DNA of 32,204 nt from Candidatus Methylomirabilis sp. (GTDB lineage: Bacteria > DYJV01). A program made the position numbers and the translations under genes. Below, one piece after another: positions 1-32,204 of this stretch. Location of the stretch: contig DYJV01000027.1 of NCBI GenBank assembly GCA_020722945.1, forward strand, positions 1 through 32,204, in the 5' to 3' direction. Position 1 is the stretch's first letter; each line of letters opens with the position of its first letter. Under the pieces are notes generated by a model, which was not told where the DNA came from, made no database searches, and was given only the letters and a program-made list of their open reading frames with translations.

Positions 1-12
1 TAGAGGGGAATT
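1..12 (-). repeat. Partial copy of the REP-like repeat, cut by the window edge
   Basis: The first 12 bases (tagaggggaatt) match the outer-hairpin end of the repeat copies at 31566-31610 and 31734-31774 when those are read in the same orientation. A second gaggggaat follows at once at 13-21. The rest of the element would lie before the window, so this identification rests on a short match. Confidence 0.5.
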
Positions 13-23229: not shown

Positions 23230-23988
23230 TTAATATATTAGGTTGCTGCTTCTTATCCAGCCTGTTACATTGTTGGATAATTTTATCTTTACAAAATTTT
23301 CTACATGGTTATACAAAATTACCTTTGTTCCATCATTTACAACTGCAACAGTATCAGATTTTTCATTAAAATCAGATTTTATCTCAACATTGTTGTTTGT
23401 TATATAACCTATCTTGATAAAATTTAGTTTATAGTAATCCCAAAAGAAATTTAGTAGAAAAAATATAAAAAAGATTCCTGAAACGATTCCTCCCCTTATA
23501 AATATTATTTTCAATCTGCTTTTATAAAAGAGAGTAAGGAGTATCAAACAGATTATTAAAAGGTAAAATAAAGCTGTCCCGATGTAGAGAATATTTTTTA
23601 AAGAGAGAATATAACTGACAAAAAATAATCTTTCTAAATATTTTATGTAGGTAGTATCTTCAATCATATCTTTTGTTTTGCTGCTGGCAATCTGAATATT
23701 TTTGTTTAAAGAGGAGTTTAGAGGGATCAAAGATTTTGCCTTGGCAAACCAATAAAGACTTTTCCCGAGCATATTCTCTTTTAGATAGCATGTCCCAATA
23801 TTGAAAAAAAGATAACCGTTGTTTATTTTAAACTCTTTATAAATCTCTTCAAATATCTCTCTGCTGCTTGTAGTTTGGTTGTTTTCGTATAATTTGGTAG
23901 CTTTTTGAACTTTCTCTGCAAAATAATCGTTGGAAGCGTGCATCTCAGAAAATATCAACAGTATCATTAAAATCAAGATTCTTTTCAA
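23230..23988 (-). CDS. batE: BatE-like TPR and SH3 membrane protein
   Basis: The 252-residue protein has a signal peptide or anchor (1-18), TPR-like helices (about 20-105, with NNGYLFFNIGTCYLKENMLG and SLYWFAKAKSLIPLN), two transmembrane helices (about 132-155 and 165-186) and a C-terminal bacterial SH3 domain (about 195-252, ending VTGWIRSSNLIY). This TPR/SH3 combination after batD is typical of BatE in Bat aerotolerance clusters. It probably faces the periplasm and may touch the cell wall. It starts 12 bases after batD. Confidence 0.75.
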   Translation of the reverse strand: MKRILILMILLIFSEMHASNDYFAEKVQKATKLYENNQTTSSREIFEEIYKEFKINNGYLFFNIGTCYLKENMLGKSLYWFAKAKSLIPLNSSLNKNIQIASSKTKDMIEDTTYIKYLERLFFVSYILSLKNILYIGTALFYLLIICLILLTLFYKSRLKIIFIRGGIVSGIFFIFFLLNFFWDYYKLNFIKIGYITNNNVEIKSDFNEKSDTVAVVNDGTKVILYNHVENFVKIKLSNNVTGWIRSSNLIY

Positions 23989-24000
23989 AAAATACCCCCT

Positions 24001-25686
24001 TTAATGCTTTAAATGTTCTGAGTTGATACTTTTTATAATTTCAAAAAGTTCTCTCTTTAACTGATTGATATTTATATCATTTCTTTTTGAAAATTTTGCT
24101 TTATCCATCTCACAAAATATAGTTTCGAGAGTACTTAGCTGCTCTTGTGGGAGATTTTGGGAGTGGAGTATCTTGATTATCTCCTCAAAAGTTGCCTGTT
24201 TGTCAAAGTTCCCTGTTTTGTTTGTGAAGTATACCTTTACAGAATCACTTAACTCTTCAATGGTTGATATAGAATCGATACTTTTTTTGAAATTATGAAA
24301 AGCATTATTTTTTAATACCGTATAATAGCTATCCCTTCTGGTATTTAGATATATCTTCAAAATAATTACAAGAGCAAATATCAAAATAGGGAGAAAATAA
24401 ATAATTGCAAATTTATAATTAAGCTTGATACCTTGCTCTTCTAACTTAAAATTTGTAAATATAGTATCCAAATATTCACCCTGTGATGCAATTTCTCTCT
24501 TTGTGCTCTTTTCAACTATTTTCAGATTATCATCATTGCCTCCTTTAACATCAATGTTAATAGCTGGGAGATTAATTTCATGATACTTTTCTGTTGTAGG
24601 ATTGTAGAATATAATTGGTTTGGCTGAGATTTTAAATGTCCCCTCTTTTTCAGATATTACAACTATCTTCTCTGTTTTTTCACTTAAAACTCCATTTTCT
24701 GTTTTGCTAATTGTTACTTTCGGTTTGTCAGGGTAGTATCTCAAACCTATTACTTCTGATAGTGTAAGTTTGTCAGAGAGGTTGAGATTCCCCTCACCAT
24801 TAATTGTAAATGTAATAGTAGCACTCTCACCAATTTTTATTTTAGATTTATCTATATTGTATTTAAAAGTATAGTTCCCAACAGCATAGATAGGTTTTGA
24901 AAAAGGTTTTACTTCAATATTAGTCGGATTGCTTTGGATTGATACTTCCCTTGTATTTGCAATTGCAAAAGGATTCTTAAAAAAATTGTCTATGATATTT
25001 TCATTGCTTTCAAGGTTGCACTGTATAACAAATGGTGGAATTGTAAAAACCCCTGTCTGTGTAGGGTATAAAGCATATTTTATCTCTGAAACAAGGTATT
25101 TCTTGTTGTTAATAATTTCGTAAAACTCTTTGACATCTGTAAGTTTCTCAATTATAAATTCATTTATAGCAGGGATGTTCATCCTGATATCGTAGGTATT
25201 GAGTCGTCTGTAAAGTCTTACAGAAAGGATAATCTCTTGATTTAGGTAAACGGAGTTTTTGGTGGGTGATACTTTAATAAATATATTTTTATCTTCCTGA
25301 TTACGATTGTCAATTTTATTTTTTGTGACCTTTATATCAATAGTGTTACTTCTGAGAGTTTTATTGCCAACTTTGACTATAGCCGGTCCTATCGTAAAAT
25401 TACCCTCTTTTTCAGCTCTGATAATGTATGAATATATCTTTTCGGCTTTGTAATCCCCATTTACTATTGATACCTTACTTGAAGTCCCTCTATAGTTTAC
25501 AGTAAAATTACCCAGATTCTCTATTTGAGGTTGTTCTGATGATTTTATGTTGAGCAGAGATATATTTAAGATTGTTGTTTCACCTATGGAGAGGGTGCTT
25601 TTATCCACTGATAAGATTATACTTTTATCTTGAGCAAATGTTAATGAAACTGATAGCAATAGAAATAGTAAAATATTTTTTAACAT
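24001..25686 (-). CDS. batD: BatD family protein
   Basis: The 561-residue protein begins with a clear signal peptide (MLKNILLFLLLSVSLTFAQ), then a long periplasmic region of repeated beta domains (about 20-400). LSIGETTILNISLLN, TKNSVYLNQEIILSVRLYRR and IKIGESATITFTINGEGN mark three domain starts. A transmembrane helix (about 420-442) leads to a cytoplasmic helical tail of about 115 residues. This is the BatD (oxygen tolerance) architecture. It starts four bases after the batB-batC stop and is probably translated by coupling, since the only purine-rich match abuts the ATG. Confidence 0.85.
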   Translation of the reverse strand: MLKNILLFLLLSVSLTFAQDKSIILSVDKSTLSIGETTILNISLLNIKSSEQPQIENLGNFTVNYRGTSSKVSIVNGDYKAEKIYSYIIRAEKEGNFTIGPAIVKVGNKTLRSNTIDIKVTKNKIDNRNQEDKNIFIKVSPTKNSVYLNQEIILSVRLYRRLNTYDIRMNIPAINEFIIEKLTDVKEFYEIINNKKYLVSEIKYALYPTQTGVFTIPPFVIQCNLESNENIIDNFFKNPFAIANTREVSIQSNPTNIEVKPFSKPIYAVGNYTFKYNIDKSKIKIGESATITFTINGEGNLNLSDKLTLSEVIGLRYYPDKPKVTISKTENGVLSEKTEKIVVISEKEGTFKISAKPIIFYNPTTEKYHEINLPAINIDVKGGNDDNLKIVEKSTKREIASQGEYLDTIFTNFKLEEQGIKLNYKFAIIYFLPILIFALVIILKIYLNTRRDSYYTVLKNNAFHNFKKSIDSISTIEELSDSVKVYFTNKTGNFDKQATFEEIIKILHSQNLPQEQLSTLETIFCEMDKAKFSKRNDININQLKRELFEIIKSINSEHLKH

Positions 25687-25690
25687 CCCT

Positions 25691-27526
25691 TTACCAATCT
25701 TTCTCAGATCTATTTTTTCTATCTGAAAAATTCTTTTTTATAGATTCTTTTAGTAACTGTTTGTTATCATTATATAGCATAAGGAGTTTGCTATCAACTG
25801 TAGAGTTGTCTAAATTTCCCTTTTCTGGCATATTTTCTATACTTTGAGATAGCCCCTCTTCTCTGTTTTTATCATCTTTTGGATGGCTATCCTTTGGCTG
25901 CTCCTGTTGACTTTTATCCTGTTTTGGAGCATCTTGTGGTTGCTTCTGTTGACTCTTATTATCTCCACTATTTGGTTGACGGTTGCCACTTTTTTTATCT
26001 TTACTCTCCATGCTACTATTGTCATCTCTATTTTTACTTTTATTTGTGTCATTATCCTTGCTCTCATTACTGTTTTGACAGCTATTTTGCTTTTTACTCT
26101 CCTTTTTTTTCATCTCCTCTAATGTTTTTAAAGTAAGTTCATAATTAATTCTTGCATCTTTGTCATCAGGTGTTAGCTTTAAGACTTCTTTAAAATTTTT
26201 GAGTGCTTCATCAAATTTACTCTTCTGAAAGTTGATAACTCCTTTGTTAAAATAAGATTTAGACTTCAAAATATTGTCTTGGCTGCTGCTGATGATCTGG
26301 TCAAATAGTCCAGATGCATTGTCAAAATCCCCCTTTTTGTAGAGTGCATCAGCATCGTTAAATTGGTAAGTAAGATTGTTATCTTTGTTGAAAGCTTCTT
26401 TAAAGTAATCTGATCCCTCTGAAAAGTTGTCATTATTGTAGTAGTCAATCCCTTTTTTATTTAAAAAATATGGATTAGCGGCATTTAATGGCAAATTTGA
26501 TACTATAAGAGTAAATAGAGCTACAACAGCTACCCCCTTTAATTTTTTCCTCTCATCAATTAGAAAGTAGAGAAGTAGTGATAAAAATGCAGGGAGTAAA
26601 AACCATTGGAATCTATTGGAGTAAATCCTCTTTTTCATAACACCGTCAGTAACATCGTTACTACCTGATGATATTTTGTTGTAAATATACTCTATATCTT
26701 TTGATGTCAAAGAGCCTCTTATAAAAGTCCCACCTGTTTTTAATGCTATATCTTGAAGAAATGGTTCATTTGTCTTTGATGTTACTATATTGCCATTGTT
26801 ATCTTTTTTAAATTCTCCATTTTCTATTGGTATCGGAGTTGGTGAATCGGTGCCAATAGAGACAGTGTAGATTGTGATATTGTTATTTTTACAAAGAGTT
26901 ATTGCTTCCTCTATATTCCCACTAAAATCTTCCCCATCTGATAGGACTATAATTGATGAATTGTTTAATTTATGTCTGACTACTATATCAGATATTTTCT
27001 TTACAAGAGCATAAAAATTGGTTCCTTGAATAGGGATAATATCTGTATTTACAATATCTATAAAGGAATCAAAAATTGAGTAGTCATTGGTCAAAGGGAT
27101 AAGTAGATAAGGTTCACCAGCAAAAGGAACAAGTGATATTCTCTCACCCTTTGCAAGGGATATAAGATCAATAATTTTTCTTTTTGCAATATTGAGTCTA
27201 TTTGGTAAAATGTCAGTAGCATTCATACTCAAAGATACGTCAACAGCAATAAAAATATTACTTCCAAGAGTTGAGAGGGTAATGTCTTTGAATCCGTATC
27301 TTGGCTCAGCAAGTGCAACTATAATCAAGATATAACAGAGTGAGAGCAGAAATGATTTTAAAAATAGTTTCCCTCTACTTCTGATGCTCCCTATTTTTGA
27401 GAAATTTTCGAGTGTAAAGATTGATTTTATAAGCTTCTGACGTTTTAAAAAAAATAGATGAAATACACCCATAATTAGTGGAGCAAAGATAATAAAAAGT
27501 AGTAAATTTGGATTTCCAAATGTCAT
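25691..27526 (-). CDS. batB: BatB-BatC fusion: VWA domain plus TPR repeats
   Basis: The 611-residue protein joins two proteins that are separate in Bacteroides. Residues 1-320 are BatB: an N-terminal aerotolerance-regulator segment with two helices (about 7-26 and 57-75), a VWA domain with intact MIDAS DVSLS (about 94-98) and a helix near 310-325. A further hydrophobic segment (about 333-353) looks like an internal signal peptide, after which 355-480 carry three TPR units as in BatC. The C-terminal 100 or so residues are low-complexity Lys/Gln/Asp/Ser, including a duplicated unit (KSQQKQPQD, then KSQQEQPKD). It starts 23 bases after batA ends. Confidence 0.88.
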   Translation of the reverse strand: MTFGNPNLLLFIIFAPLIMGVFHLFFLKRQKLIKSIFTLENFSKIGSIRSRGKLFLKSFLLSLCYILIIVALAEPRYGFKDITLSTLGSNIFIAVDVSLSMNATDILPNRLNIAKRKIIDLISLAKGERISLVPFAGEPYLLIPLTNDYSIFDSFIDIVNTDIIPIQGTNFYALVKKISDIVVRHKLNNSSIIVLSDGEDFSGNIEEAITLCKNNNITIYTVSIGTDSPTPIPIENGEFKKDNNGNIVTSKTNEPFLQDIALKTGGTFIRGSLTSKDIEYIYNKISSGSNDVTDGVMKKRIYSNRFQWFLLPAFLSLLLYFLIDERKKLKGVAVVALFTLIVSNLPLNAANPYFLNKKGIDYYNNDNFSEGSDYFKEAFNKDNNLTYQFNDADALYKKGDFDNASGLFDQIISSSQDNILKSKSYFNKGVINFQKSKFDEALKNFKEVLKLTPDDKDARINYELTLKTLEEMKKKESKKQNSCQNSNESKDNDTNKSKNRDDNSSMESKDKKSGNRQPNSGDNKSQQKQPQDAPKQDKSQQEQPKDSHPKDDKNREEGLSQSIENMPEKGNLDNSTVDSKLLMLYNDNKQLLKESIKKNFSDRKNRSEKDW

Positions 27527-27549
27527 TTTTTAACCTTTTTAATCGTGAT

Positions 27550-28536
27550 TTATGGGAATACTTGTCTTACTCCATTAAAGTAAACAACTTTCACTCCTAA
27601 AAGGAGTATTGCCATAATTAAAAAATATTTATAGTAGTAAGTTGTTTCGTAGTAATTTTTTACTTTAAATGTTGTTTTTTCAAGTCTATCTATATCATTT
27701 AAGATATTTTCAAGAGATTTAAAATCTTGTGCGTTAAAATATTTACCGTCCGATATTTGGGCTATCTGCTTCAGAGTGTAATCGTCAAGATCTATATTCA
27801 CAAATACTCTCTTAGTTCCAAAAATAGTTTGCTGAATTATAGGGACAGGCTTACCCTTGCTCCCTATTCCAATGGTGTAAATCTTTACACCTTTCTGTTT
27901 TGCAAGTTTGGCTGCTGTGATAGGATTTACTTTGCCAGTATTGTTCCTTCCGTCAGTTACAAGAATAATTACTTTTGATTTTGAATCACTATTTAGCAAT
28001 CTCTTTGTTGAAAGCAGGATTGCTGAACCTATTGCAGTGCTATCGCCTGCCATACCAAGCTCAATTCTATCAACAAGAAAATCGAGTGTGGATTGGTCAA
28101 TTGTAAGTGGGCATTGTGTAAATGCCTCCTCTCCAAATACCACAATCCCCATCTTATCTGTTGTGCGTTTCTGAATAAAATCTCTGACTACTATTTTTAA
28201 TGCGTCAAGTCTATTAAGCTCTTTATTTTCATAGTTAAAATCGAGAGCTGTCATACTGCCTGATGTATCAAGAGCAAATATAATATTGATACCTTTGGTT
28301 TCTCTATCTGTGAAAGTTTTCAACTTCTGCGGGTTAGCAAGTGCAAAGATAATTGATAAAAGGAGAAAGAAGTTGAGAGTGTTTTTTAAAATAAAGTAGT
28401 AATTCTGCTCAATTACAACTTTGTGTGCAAGGGGGTAGGTAAATCTAATTTTTTTTTGGAGTTTGTTGTAATACCAGAGTAGTATGGGAATCAATATTAT
28501 CAAAAAAAAGTATTCAGGATTTGCAAATCTAAACAC
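27550..28536 (-). CDS. batA: BatA-type VWA domain membrane protein
   Basis: The product has an N-terminal segment with two hydrophobic helices (FANPEYFFLIILIPILLW, then a second near 50-65). A VWA domain follows with an intact MIDAS, ALDTSGSM, and VTDGRNNTG, and a C-terminal helix closes the protein, the BatA layout. It binds a divalent metal and probably partners BatB in the membrane. I place the start at the GTG at 28536 (328 residues) because AAGGGAG lies eight bases before it. The in-frame GTG at 28545 touches that same Shine-Dalgarno. With this start it overlaps the preceding stop by eight bases. Confidence 0.87.
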   Translation of the reverse strand: MFRFANPEYFFLIILIPILLWYYNKLQKKIRFTYPLAHKVVIEQNYYFILKNTLNFFLLLSIIFALANPQKLKTFTDRETKGINIIFALDTSGSMTALDFNYENKELNRLDALKIVVRDFIQKRTTDKMGIVVFGEEAFTQCPLTIDQSTLDFLVDRIELGMAGDSTAIGSAILLSTKRLLNSDSKSKVIILVTDGRNNTGKVNPITAAKLAKQKGVKIYTIGIGSKGKPVPIIQQTIFGTKRVFVNIDLDDYTLKQIAQISDGKYFNAQDFKSLENILNDIDRLEKTTFKVKNYYETTYYYKYFLIMAILLLGVKVVYFNGVRQVFP

Positions 28537-29428
28537 TTTTGCCACTCCCTTGCTCTATTTTCTCAACCAAACTTTTTACCCTTTCAAGCTGGGATAGAGC
28601 CTCCACTTTTGATGGAAAATCATTTGTAAACTTGTAGTATTCCCATTTTTTAAAAAGTAAAAGTAGCTCACTTTTAATATCTTTATCAATAAGGAAATCT
28701 TTTGCAAAGATGTTGGTTATCTCTTTTATTGTTGATTCAAGTGTATTTAGAAGAAATTTTCTATCAATGAATCCCCTTGATGCTTCTGAGATATTGAAGT
28801 AAAACTCCCTGAGCTTCCCTTTCTCTATCAAATCTGCTGATACGAGGGATATCTCCATAAAGTAATCTAATGCTGATTTTGACAATGTTTCCTTAACTTT
28901 TCCTCTTTTTCTAAAAAATTTAATCATCACAATAGCCAAAATCACTGCTACCAATATAGATATGGTTAGTAGAATTTTCTCATTTTTAGTGAGATAAAAA
29001 GGTGTAAGAAGAGGTGGTTTGATATCTTTAAATGACTGGTTATCTGTCAAATTTGATAATATTGTAAGTTCAGTTTGGTTTGAAGAAACTTTGTAAGAGT
29101 CGTTATCATTTTTTAGGGTAAATTCAATTTCAGGGATAACAACTTTACCTATTTTAAAAAATTGTAAATAAAAGTTGTAAATTGTCCCATTGTCGTCAGA
29201 TTTTTTCTCTATATTTTGGATGTTAAAATCTTTTAGAACCTCTTCAATGTTTGTCCCTTCAACTTTGGCACTATTGGTTGTTATCTTAATCTCAAAAGGC
29301 GCTTTCTCCCCAAGATAGATATTACCCTTTTGAGGAGTTACTATCACTGAAAAACTTTCAGATAAGAGTGGCACTGATAAAGTTATCAATGCAGATATTG
29401 AAATAAAAATTACTATTAAGATTCTCAA
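28529..29428 (-). CDS. Membrane-anchored Bat-cluster accessory protein (DUF4381/BatD-like)
   Basis: The protein has a signal peptide or anchor, a beta-rich periplasmic domain (SFSVIVTPQKGNIYLGEKAP, resembling one BatD domain), a transmembrane helix (NEKILLTISILVAVILAIVM) and a helical cytoplasmic tail. Such proteins sit between DUF58 and batA genes in many Bat clusters. I choose the TTG at 29428 (299 residues) because AAAAGGG precedes it by six bases and it begins directly with MRILIVIF, a normal signal start. An in-frame ATG at 29491 would overlap the DUF58 gene by 38 bases and has no Shine-Dalgarno. Function is inferred from context. Confidence 0.72.
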   Translation of the reverse strand: MRILIVIFISISALITLSVPLLSESFSVIVTPQKGNIYLGEKAPFEIKITTNSAKVEGTNIEEVLKDFNIQNIEKKSDDNGTIYNFYLQFFKIGKVVIPEIEFTLKNDNDSYKVSSNQTELTILSNLTDNQSFKDIKPPLLTPFYLTKNEKILLTISILVAVILAIVMIKFFRKRGKVKETLSKSALDYFMEISLVSADLIEKGKLREFYFNISEASRGFIDRKFLLNTLESTIKEITNIFAKDFLIDKDIKSELLLLFKKWEYYKFTNDFPSKVEALSQLERVKSLVEKIEQGSGKSV

Positions 29429-29453
29429 TATTAACCCTTTTATCAGAAAAATT

Positions 29454-30296
29454 TTATTTTCCCCTCTCTTTGAAATATTTTGCAATCTCATTTATGTAAG
29501 GTTTGTCAGTGGTAATTGAAATTGGGTGGATATCTATATTTTTAAATTTATTTGTTACTGTTTCTGAATGTTTGGGTGAGAAATCGAGTCGATTTTGACA
29601 GAAGAGAGCACTCTCAGAGTCTTCAAAGTTGAATATATTTTTACTACTGCTTCTAAAATTGCCTTCGTAAGGATCAGTAATAATAACAGGGACAATATCA
29701 AACTTTTTCTTTAATGATTTGAGATGGATATAAAAATTGTCATCTGATATAAAATCTGAAATGAGGAAGACTACACCCCTCTTTTTTATTGTGTCTCCAA
29801 GAAATTTTAATGCAGTTGAGATATCACTGGTTTTGTCCCTTTTTTCTGCTTCAACAACTGTTTTTATGATATTCCAGATATGTGTCCTACCCTTTTTAGG
29901 TGGGATAAATTTTTTTATCCCTCTCCCAAAAAGTATTGCTCCCACTTTGTCATTGCTTTTTACTGCTGTGTAAGCCAATAGAGCGGATACCTCTGTTGCA
30001 ATATCAGATTTGAAAGCCCATTTGCTTCCAAAATACATTGATGCTGAGATATCAAGAATTATAATTACAGTTAGCTCTCGCTCCTCTTTAAAAATTTTGG
30101 TATGGAGCTTTCCTGTTTTTGCAGAGTTGTTCCAATCTACTGTCTTTACATCATCACCAGCAATATATTCACGAATCTCCTCAAATTCAAGACCTCGCCC
30201 CTTGAAAGCACTCGTATATTCGCCAGCAAATATATCGTTGGAGAGAAATTTTATCTTTATATTTACTTTTTTGATGTAATCAAAAAACTCAAACAT
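29454..30296 (-). CDS. DUF58 domain protein (Bat cluster, VWA-like)
   Basis: The 280-residue soluble protein carries the DUF58 core IREYIAGDDVKTVDWNNSA (41-59), followed by a VWA-like domain with DISAS in IIILDISASMYFGSKWAF. LISDFIS and the C-terminal Rossmann-like half continue the family pattern. DUF58 proteins are regular partners of MoxR ATPases; the pair probably acts as a chaperone-like module for the membrane VWA proteins downstream. It starts nine bases after the moxR stop. The Asp-x-Ser-x-Ser metal site is intact. Confidence 0.9.
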   Translation of the reverse strand: MFEFFDYIKKVNIKIKFLSNDIFAGEYTSAFKGRGLEFEEIREYIAGDDVKTVDWNNSAKTGKLHTKIFKEERELTVIIILDISASMYFGSKWAFKSDIATEVSALLAYTAVKSNDKVGAILFGRGIKKFIPPKKGRTHIWNIIKTVVEAEKRDKTSDISTALKFLGDTIKKRGVVFLISDFISDDNFYIHLKSLKKKFDIVPVIITDPYEGNFRSSSKNIFNFEDSESALFCQNRLDFSPKHSETVTNKFKNIDIHPISITTDKPYINEIAKYFKERGK

Positions 30297-30305
30297 TTTT
30301 GGTTG

Positions 30306-31286
30306 CTATGGTGTGGGAACTCTGTTGAGTATCTCTTTTATTATATCGTCACTTTTTAGATTGTCTGCTTCTGCCTCGTAACTCATAAGTATCCTATGTC
30401 TCAAAATATCTGGTGCAATATCTTTTATATCTTGTGGCGTAACATATGCTCGACCCTCAAGAAATGCATTCCCCTTTGCTGCTTTAAAAAGATTGAGACT
30501 ACACCTTGGAGAAGCTCCAAAGTAAACAAATCTTTTATCCAGCCCTATTTTATCAATGCTCCTTGTGGCTGATACAATCTCAATTATGTAATTCTCTATC
30601 TTCTCATCTATATAAATCTCTTCAATTGTTCCTTTTATCTGCTGTAATGCTTTTGAATCAAATATATTTTTTAAAGCTATATCTTTTTCAAATGCATGAT
30701 TTTTCATAATCATTTTTTCCTGCTCTTTATCAGGGTAATCAAGGAGTATCTTAAACATAAATCTATCAAGCTGTGCTTCAGGGAGAGGATACACACCCTC
30801 CTGCTCCAATGGATTTTGTGTGGCAACCACAAAAAATGGTGGTGTAAGGTGAAAAGTCTCATCGCCGATGGTAATCTGCTTCTCCTGCATTACTTCAAGC
30901 AGAGCACTCTGAACCTTTGCAGGAGCTCTATTTATCTCATCAGCAAGGAGAAAATTTGTAAAGATAGGTCCTTTTTTTACAAAAAAATTCATATCTTTTG
31001 GGTTGTAAATCTGGGTGCCGATAAGATCACTCGGTAGTAAATCAGGTGTAAATTGGATTCTTTTAAAGCCAAGACCGAGTATATTTGCAAATGTGTTGGC
31101 GGTTTTTGTTTTGGCAAGACCGGGCACACCCTCAATCAGGATATGACCATCTGTAAGAAATCCTAATAAAAGTTTCTTTATAAGCTCCTCTTGACCGACT
31201 ATTACTTTATGCATCTCCTTAAAAAATATCTCTATAAGGGGTCTTGTGCTGATAATTTTAGCGTTGATAAGCTCAATATCTACCAT
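30306..31286 (-). CDS. MoxR family AAA+ ATPase
   Basis: The 326-residue ATPase shows Walker A GVPGLAKT (53-60), the MoxR segment RIQFTPDLLPSDLIGTQIY, Walker B FLLADEINRAP, sensor 1 VVATQNP and LPEAQLDRFMFKI with the arginine finger. A C-terminal lid domain follows from about residue 230. MoxR ATPases act as chaperones for VWA-domain proteins, here DUF58, BatA and BatB. It is the first gene of the minus-strand run, with a strong AAGGAG before the ATG and a good promoter 44 bases upstream. Confidence 0.95.
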   Translation of the reverse strand: MVDIELINAKIISTRPLIEIFFKEMHKVIVGQEELIKKLLLGFLTDGHILIEGVPGLAKTKTANTFANILGLGFKRIQFTPDLLPSDLIGTQIYNPKDMNFFVKKGPIFTNFLLADEINRAPAKVQSALLEVMQEKQITIGDETFHLTPPFFVVATQNPLEQEGVYPLPEAQLDRFMFKILLDYPDKEQEKMIMKNHAFEKDIALKNIFDSKALQQIKGTIEEIYIDEKIENYIIEIVSATRSIDKIGLDKRFVYFGASPRCSLNLFKAAKGNAFLEGRAYVTPQDIKDIAPDILRHRILMSYEAEADNLKSDDIIKEILNRVPTP

Positions 31287-31329: not shown

Positions 31330-31358
31330 ATTATCGTAATATTTTGAGTTTTTTTCAA
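31330..31358 (-). promoter_or_regulatory. Sigma-70-type promoter of the moxR-bat run
   Basis: On the minus strand, TTGAAA (31358-31353), a spacer of exactly 17 bases and GATAAT (31335-31330) form a strong promoter. Transcription would start near 31323 and give a leader of about 37 bases before moxR. The following minus-strand genes have gaps under 75 bases, so this promoter could serve much of the run. Confidence 0.8.
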
Positions 31359-31565
31359 TTATTTATTATTGAAATTTAGTCAAGTTAAATTTTGTTAAGA
31401 GAGGATAAATGGTTTTTATCACTGATAAATTTGATGAAGTATCAGTTAATGAAAATAAAATATTTTAAGGTGTAATAAAATCTCAATATTAAGAATTCAA
31501 ATTGGGATGGTAGATCTATAAAAATAGGCTGAATTAAAGATAAAAAGAAAATCCAAAAGAGTTGA

Positions 31566-31610
31566 CCACCCTGTCACCTGACGGTGCTACCCCTTGAGTA
31601 GAGGGGAATT
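31566..31610 (-). repeat. REP-like repeat, copy A (divergent)
   Basis: Read on the minus strand this copy starts aattcccct and ends cagggtgg. Its outer stem cccct/agggg encloses ctactca, and its inner stem cacc/ggtg encloses gtca. Both stems differ in sequence from copies C and D yet still pair. Similarity to copy C continues beyond the core through gggtggtc and a ttttggatttt tract at 31548-31558. Confidence 0.8.
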
Positions 31611-31733
31611 TTTTAAAAAAATAATTATCTATTCTCAATTATCCATTCAAAATTCATAATTCAACATTAATAATCTTGTTGGCATGAAGTTTTGAAAGAA
31701 AGAGAAAAAAATTTAAAAATAAAAAAAGAACGA

Positions 31734-31774
31734 CCACCCCACCGCTTTGCGGCACCCCTCCATAGAGGGGAATT
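31734..31774 (-). repeat. REP-like repeat, copy B
   Basis: On the minus strand this copy reads aattcccctctatggagggg and then an inner hairpin ccgc-aaa-gcgg before the terminal ggggtgg. The outer half is identical to copies C and D; the inner stem has different, compensating bases. It faces copy C across 141 bases. Confidence 0.85.
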
Positions 31775-31778
31775 AAAA

Positions 31779-31884
31779 AATAGTTGTTAGTTGATAGTTT
31801 TTACTGTTTAGGAAAGAAAAAAAGATAAAATCTCTCTGCTTTTATTTTTTTCTAACAACTAACCCCTAACAACTAACAACTATT
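31779..31884. repeat. 15-bp inverted repeat between copies B and C
   Basis: The arm aatagttgttagttg (31779-31793) is a perfect inverted copy of caactaacaactatt (31870-31884), separated by 76 bases. A further partial copy (ctaacaactaac) lies at 31851-31862. It is nested inside the head-to-head pair of REP-like copies B and C, making one large imperfect palindrome from about 31734 to 31960. Confidence 0.85.
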
Positions 31885-31905
31885 CCCCCCTTCAGCCCGA
31901 TTTTA

Positions 31906-31960
31906 TTCCTGCTTTAATTCCCCTCTATGGAGGGGTGGCAGGCAAAGCCTGACGGGGTGG
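31906..31960 (+). repeat. REP-like repeat, copy C
   Basis: This copy has an outer hairpin cccctctatggagggg, then ggtgg, an inner hairpin caggc-aaa-gcctg and the terminal ggggtgg. It is identical to copy D over all 55 bases from ttcctgctttaattc to ggggtgg. A T-rich tract follows. Confidence 0.9.
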
Positions 31961-32149
31961 TCTTTTCCTTTGGATTTTGTCTTTTTGTTTTTCTCTTTTC
32001 TCTTTTATCTTTTTCTATTTTTAATTTTTTTATCTTTGCTTTTATTTTTTAGTTTTTTTCTTCAGCACTTCAGCCTTACACCTGTTCATCAAAATGGAAA
32101 AAAGATAGTTTGTCATTTCAATTTAAATTTTGAACCTTGAAATTGCAGT

Positions 32150-32204
32150 TTCCTGCTTTAATTCCCCTCTATGGAGGGGTGGCAGGCAAAGCCTGACGGG
32201 GTGG
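32150..32204 (+). repeat. REP-like repeat, copy D, at the window end
   Basis: This copy is a perfect 55-base match to copy C, 244 bases downstream in the same orientation. The window stops at the terminal ggggtgg, so the identity may run further. Its left limit is where copy C has a and this copy has t (32149). Confidence 0.9.

Follow-up and report, generated by a model that had tools for sequence, protein, structure and literature searches.

Introduction

Four copies of a short double-hairpin repeat, two on each strand, are crowded in the last 640 bases of the DNA window analysed here (32,204 nucleotides, the entire contig C24 of a Candidatus Methylomirabilis genome), and the same repeat is found at the start of the contig as well as at its end, which raises the question of what these repeats are and which enzyme, if any, moves them. 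REP-like repeats are known, as are their pairing with a dedicated enzyme (RAYT) and the loss of that enzyme, and many bacterial palindromic repeat families lack a known mobiliser. For the CGTC REP superfamily in particular, Di Nocera et al. (2013; PMC3733652) report no dedicated transposase and state explicitly that a mobiliser is not known.

A first-pass annotation of the window had described the four copies as a REP-like family, possibly mobilised by a RAYT. In the present work, we follow the repeat through its own genome, an unselected survey of 386 genomes and further carriers, and consider the candidate mobilisers and the alternative explanations.

Results

Repeat copies in the window

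The canonical repeat (copy C in Table 1) can be described as AATT-CCCCTC-N3-9-GAGGGG-TGGC-[stem-loop]-(A/C)C-GGGGTGGT, and the family pattern, written AATTCCCCTC-N-GAGGGG-TGGC-[stem]-(A/C)C-GGGGTGGT, covers copies A to D and the fragment at position 1. A pattern composed of outer hairpin, inner stem and GGGGTGG matches three of the four copies (B, C and D), the expectation from shuffled sequences being 0, and GGGGTGG itself occurs six times in the window (0.8 expected). In folding calculations, B, C and D each form two successive hairpins (z -3.3 to -3.6). Copy A folds weakly (z -1.8), ends in AGGGTGG instead of GGGGTGG and has TAGC where the others have TGGC. The architecture which the first-pass annotation had ascribed to all four copies (a common outer hairpin, an inner hairpin and a terminal GGGGTGG) holds for B, C and D, but the terminal GGGGTGG does not apply to A; its reading of the inner stems was correct in every copy. 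C and D show no difference over 55 nt and therefore count as one variant. An Rfam search of the window returned tRNA only, the repeat having no match above the gathering score.

Table 1. Copies of the double-hairpin repeat in the window
Feature	Position	Strand	Description
Copy A, degenerate	31565..31610	-	AATTCCCCTCTACTCAAGGGGTAGCACCGTCAGGTGACAGGGTGGT read on the minus strand; inner stem CACC/GGTG
Copy B	31733..31774	-	outer hairpin CCCCTC/GAGGGG; inner stem CCGC/GCGG; tail GGGGTGGT
Copy C, canonical	31916..31961	+	AATTCCCCTCTATGGAGGGGTGGCAGGCAAAGCCTGACGGGGTGGT; inner stem CAGGC/GCCTG, G.A mismatch at the stem foot
Copy D	32160..32204	+	equal to copy C over its extent; cut by the contig end after GGGGTGG
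Fragment of a further copy	1..12	-	tagaggggaatt (minus strand: AATTCCCCTCTA); cut by the contig start

Between the copies (31340-32160), the DNA is AT-rich, with pyrimidine-rich stretches and short repeats of the CTAACAACTAAC type, and an imperfect inverted repeat of 46 nt is found at 31779-31884. The repeats sit upstream of the first gene of a minus-strand series (23230-31286) which, by eye, resembles a cluster of MoxR ATPase, DUF58 and von Willebrand-type (Bat-like) genes.

The family in this genome and in other phyla

The fragment at position 1, taken by the first-pass annotation as a hint of a dispersed family, is the end of a minus-strand copy, and a genome-wide pattern search bears the hint out: in the own genome, a strict pattern finds at least 22 copies and a wider one at least 26, spread over many contigs, against 0 for the reversed pattern. 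Among the 23 copies listed for this genome, 17 lie less than 700 bp from a contig end (10% expected; P about 8e-13). As the contig of the window both begins and ends in the repeat, the assembly breaks at these repeats, and the real copy number is probably higher than the one counted.

When 24 bases of the pattern were fixed, at least 118 stretches from many phyla were matched, the genomes being labelled as Bacteroidota, Clostridia, Deferribacteraceae, Planctomycetes, Alpha-, Beta- and Gammaproteobacteria, Propionibacteriaceae, Coriobacteriales, Endomicrobia, Elusimicrobiota, Chlorobi, Acidobacteria, Armatimonadetes, Chitinispirillia, Cyanobacteria, Nitrospinota, Calditrichia and Doudnabacteria, with numerous gut metagenome bins among them. 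The highest counts are 294 copies in a genome of 1.9 Mb and 181 in one of 2.2 Mb (reversed pattern, 0). In the unselected survey, the repeat is present in three of the 386 genomes only (the own genome, G239 and G384), and the single genome of the same order that was examined lacks it. This distribution, patchy and yet broad in phyla, therefore points to horizontal spread. Phage and plasmid records gave no blastn match to the repeat, and a scan of viral contigs gave 20 stretches. In Chryseobacterium, an orthologous spacer carries the repeat, which is decaying, in six related species and lacks it in others; among 173 Chryseobacterium genomes, an exact nucleotide empty site that is clean at both boundaries was not found, the right edge (GGTGGT) being clear and the left one blurred by divergence.

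The hairpins are mostly intergenic, and the repeat is, as REP elements are, short, high in copy number and mainly extragenic. Across 131 distinct inner stems, drawn from 80 genomes, Watson-Crick pairing mostly reaches 85-100% at the variable positions, which show two to four pair types, and in a control with the arms shuffled between genomes the pairing is about 0.1-0.8 at most variable positions. The covariation of paired positions, noticed by the first-pass annotation in the few copies of the window, is strong across 80 genomes, and the REP-like, mobile behaviour that it had proposed agrees with a genome-wide family in which paired positions change together. Hairpin-templated repair, instead of selection, could be an alternative source of these paired changes. 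At its second pair, the inner stem has a G.A mismatch when it is long and G-C when it is short, and the bases preceding the GGGGTGG tail are AC in 72 of the 131 stems (CGT on the opposite strand) and CC in 50.

Y1 domains in genomes carrying the repeat

The own genome has one Y1 (PF01797) domain only (G000:C152:39530-42650, which is L024:3534-6650, and L023). The domain lies in frame within an Eco57I-type restriction-methylase ORF, directly before the NPPY motif, and its HUH and tyrosine motifs are apparently intact; no copy of the repeat is found inside this gene or nearby. Considered as a candidate mobiliser, the Y1-methylase fusion was rejected, given that its palindromes differ from the repeat and that it has no repeat copy. 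These palindromes (two, perfect or near-perfect, with the core GGGTTGCAACCC) occur at only two places genome-wide, both within the fusion gene. Of 50 genomes that bear the repeat, 26 (including those with 181 and 294 copies) are without a Y1 match, and no repeat lies within 1.5 kb of any of 30 Y1 loci in carrier genomes. All this argues against the RAYT link put forward in the first-pass annotation: its expected counterpart, a single-copy Y1 gene flanked by the same hairpin, finds here only the domain in the methylase.

Association of the repeat with one DUF559 clade

DUF559 emerged from the clustering of repeat-adjacent ORFs across genomes; these are mostly housekeeping genes, the top cluster being QueA with an insert, and several ORFs containing repeat copies had a DUF559 (PF04480) domain. 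Such a domain is found in 34 of 53 carrier genomes, compared with 132 of the 386 surveyed (34%; odds ratio 3.5, P 3e-5), and is missing from the other 19 carriers, which enzyme loss or assembly gaps could explain. Most flanked carrier loci score above the Pfam cut-off for PF04480, with E from 1e-22 to 1e-40. Of 30 genomes, 18 have a repeat no farther than 300 bp from their best DUF559 locus, where uniform placement predicts 0.53 (tail P about 5e-30), and the same adjacency is seen in 13 of 20 low-copy genomes, against 0.09 expected; G239 and G067 each have one exact copy, which adjoins the DUF559 gene in the former and is at the DUF559 gene in the latter. As a rule, the order is repeat(+), DUF559, repeat(-), and GGGGTGGT points toward the gene from both sides (for instance in L209, L213, L217, L218 and L224), the whole unit being about 0.5-0.7 kb long.

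The flanked proteins have a common motif, DFDRQKIIGNYIVDF, and those from different phyla share 52-73% identity with the L209 protein. The repeat is present within 300 bp in all 19 tips of the DFDRQ clade, which form one clade, versus 5 of 62 other DUF559 proteins, the genes of these five having GGGGTGGT nearby. In the 386-genome survey, scores above 150 bits for the DFDRQ clade are obtained only in G239 and G384, which are also the sole carriers of the repeat apart from the own genome (hypergeometric 1.4e-5); with these left out of the clade alignment, they score 181.9 and 152.1, respectively, and the next genome 132. As a within-genome control, the repeat in G047, G049 and G074 is at the DFDRQ gene and not at the FRRQ-type DUF559 gene. 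In the own genome, neither the Pfam model nor the clade alignment gave a DUF559 match; the copies there cluster at contig ends, so that a repeat-flanked unit could have been lost in assembly, which is an indication rather than a proof.

The pairing may be general, since in other clades, too, unselected DUF559 genes often lie between inverted copies of a repeat, of other hairpin-plus-G-run types. A generic score for inverted repeats between gene flanks separated DUF559 from Y1 loci poorly, because inverted repeats flank the loci of both classes and the flanks of DUF559 genes are alike between genomes. Repeats of other colours, such as CCCTCTCCC-N-GGGAGAGGGTTAGGGTGAGGG, bracket DUF559 genes of other clades at L199-L205, L210, L221 and L229-L256.

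The predicted DUF559 fold (pLDDT 89.6) is similar to a Neisseria DUF559 protein (3hrl, Z 13.3), to I-Bth0305I (Z 10.1) and to Vsr (Z 9.3), and D55, E66, D68 and H72 are invariant. On this structural model, the product of the bracketed gene is a putative endonuclease with a Vsr-like PD-(D/E)XK fold and conserved acidic residues. The only DUF559 protein with a studied role that we found is VsrA of Caulobacter, which the DNA damage response induces and which is regarded as a repair nuclease of the Vsr type, with a proposed role in mismatch repair (PMC12907096).

Insertions inside genes

In the QueA of L218, residues 1-32 and 178-474 match the solved QueA, in whose chain few residues lie between the two matches, and the intervening 145 residues correspond to repeat-DUF559-repeat. 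Such units are also found in frame within LipA (L209), HsdR (L207) and HsdS (L146), and single repeats in frame within MnmE and Era; among the copies of the own genome, no in-frame gene insertion was found. DUF559 units with repeats of other colours are found in leucyl-tRNA synthetase (LeuRS, L204), where the insertion lies in the editing domain, in methionine synthase (MetH, L203) and in another QueA (L205). In queA, DUF559 units lie at two positions, N-terminal (L218, L220) and C-terminal (L102, L205), the C-terminal site being occupied with two repeat colours, which suggests that some genes or sites may be preferred targets.

Discussion

What can be read from the sequences is a repeat with a covarying inner stem, the bracketing of one DUF559 clade by this repeat in many phyla, and insertions of whole units and of single repeats, both in frame within conserved genes and intergenic; from these observations we infer that DUF559 is the mobiliser of the repeat. 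The copies in the window are then likely to be non-autonomous members of a mobile double-hairpin family which, with a Vsr-like DUF559 endonuclease dedicated to it, spreads across phyla. The autonomous unit would be repeat(+)-DUF559 gene-repeat(-), with the GGGGTGGT ends toward the gene. The endonuclease would recognise the repeat, probably in the form of single-stranded or extruded hairpins. It would cut at or beside the repeat or at target sites, and into the break host repair may then copy either the repeat or the entire unit, in the fashion of homing endonucleases. Single repeats would pile up as scars or non-autonomous copies, and in the own genome the enzyme would have been lost or would lie in the unassembled gaps at repeats. 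Low-copy genomes with their copies at the DUF559 gene, as in G239, suggest the order of arrival.

Homing endonucleases are often located in or beside their own recognition sequence, and the DUF559 genes might accordingly be passengers homing into existing repeats which spread otherwise, by replication or repair slippage or by some recombinase. The many carriers without DUF559, and the other repeat families that bracket other DUF559 clades, would fit this explanation. Nevertheless, we regard it as unlikely, since the few copies of low-copy genomes are those at the DUF559 gene (the one copy of G239 and the one exact copy of G067), a near-identical repeat follows one DUF559 clade from phylum to phylum, and whole units are inserted in genes such as QueA.

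Two further explanations dispense with DUF559 altogether. If the repeats were classical REP/REPIN elements, with a Y1 REP-associated tyrosine transposase as their mobiliser, the unpaired GTGG tags of the hairpins and the one Y1 domain of the genome would be accounted for; this is very improbable with that domain fused in a methylase that has no repeat, and with the absence of Y1 matches from more than half of the carriers examined and of repeats from the flanks of all 30 Y1 loci examined. Hairpins that are mostly intergenic and conserved in their pairing could also be immobile transcription terminators or RNA-processing hairpins, kept by selection. It is hard to give this much credence when 24 fixed bases are identical across unrelated phyla and yet present in three of the 386 surveyed genomes, when copies lie within coding frames, when presence and absence alternate between congeners (Chryseobacterium) and when Rfam has no match to the repeat.

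The proposed DUF559 system is similar to REP/RAYT systems (REPtrons; GTAG REPs with TnpA_REP) in having many short, mostly intergenic hairpin repeats, inverted copies of which bracket a single-copy gene for a DNA-cutting enzyme (here a predicted one). It differs in the bracketed protein, which is a Vsr-like PD-(D/E)XK DUF559 protein and not a Y1 HUH transposase, and in its two successive hairpins, with GGGGTGG after each. The CGTC-tagged REPs (PMC3733652) are defined by an unpaired CGTC and a CCA tail at opposite ends and by a stem that opens with AT. On the minus strand, the inner stem is preceded by CGTC and followed by CCA in about half of our copies; the other half have CGGC, our repeat has an extra outer CCCCTC/GAGGGG hairpin and our stems do not start with AT. 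Rickettsia palindromic elements are alike in being palindromic repeats in frame within protein-coding genes; here, however, some units carry a nuclease gene and the family spans many phyla. The Vsr-like EDxHD homing endonucleases (I-Bth0305I) have the same fold and are also small, selfish-looking genes in conserved genes, but our units involve neither intron nor intein, and the bracketing hairpin repeats also disperse without the gene. In the open-access literature, searched by sequence and by DUF559 chiefly in titles and abstracts, we found no report of the repeat-DUF559 pairing, which apparently represents an undescribed kind of mobile repeat.

Since the repeat is tightly paired with a single clade of DUF559, a widespread protein whose function is not known, a testable function suggests itself for both. 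If the proposal is true, DUF559, present in 34% of the surveyed genomes, would be a mobile-element enzyme with the repeats as its substrate, short in-frame insertions in essential genes across phyla would be accounted for, and REP-like repeats would have a second, non-HUH route of origin. A wider generalisation, to which we give an even chance, is that DUF559 proteins are bacteria-wide mobilisers of cognate double-hairpin repeats, each clade with its specific repeat colour (CCCCTC/GAGGGG-TGGC-GGGGTGGT in the window), and would thus be the missing mobiliser of many orphan palindromic repeats, including those inserted in frame in housekeeping genes.

As an additional observation on the placement of these units, three flavobacterial genomes (L072/L223, L117 and L224) have a DUF559 unit upstream of one and the same gene (MTFQEQIQQGIP...; its product is 661 aa long in two of the genomes), and the genes farther upstream differ between the three loci.
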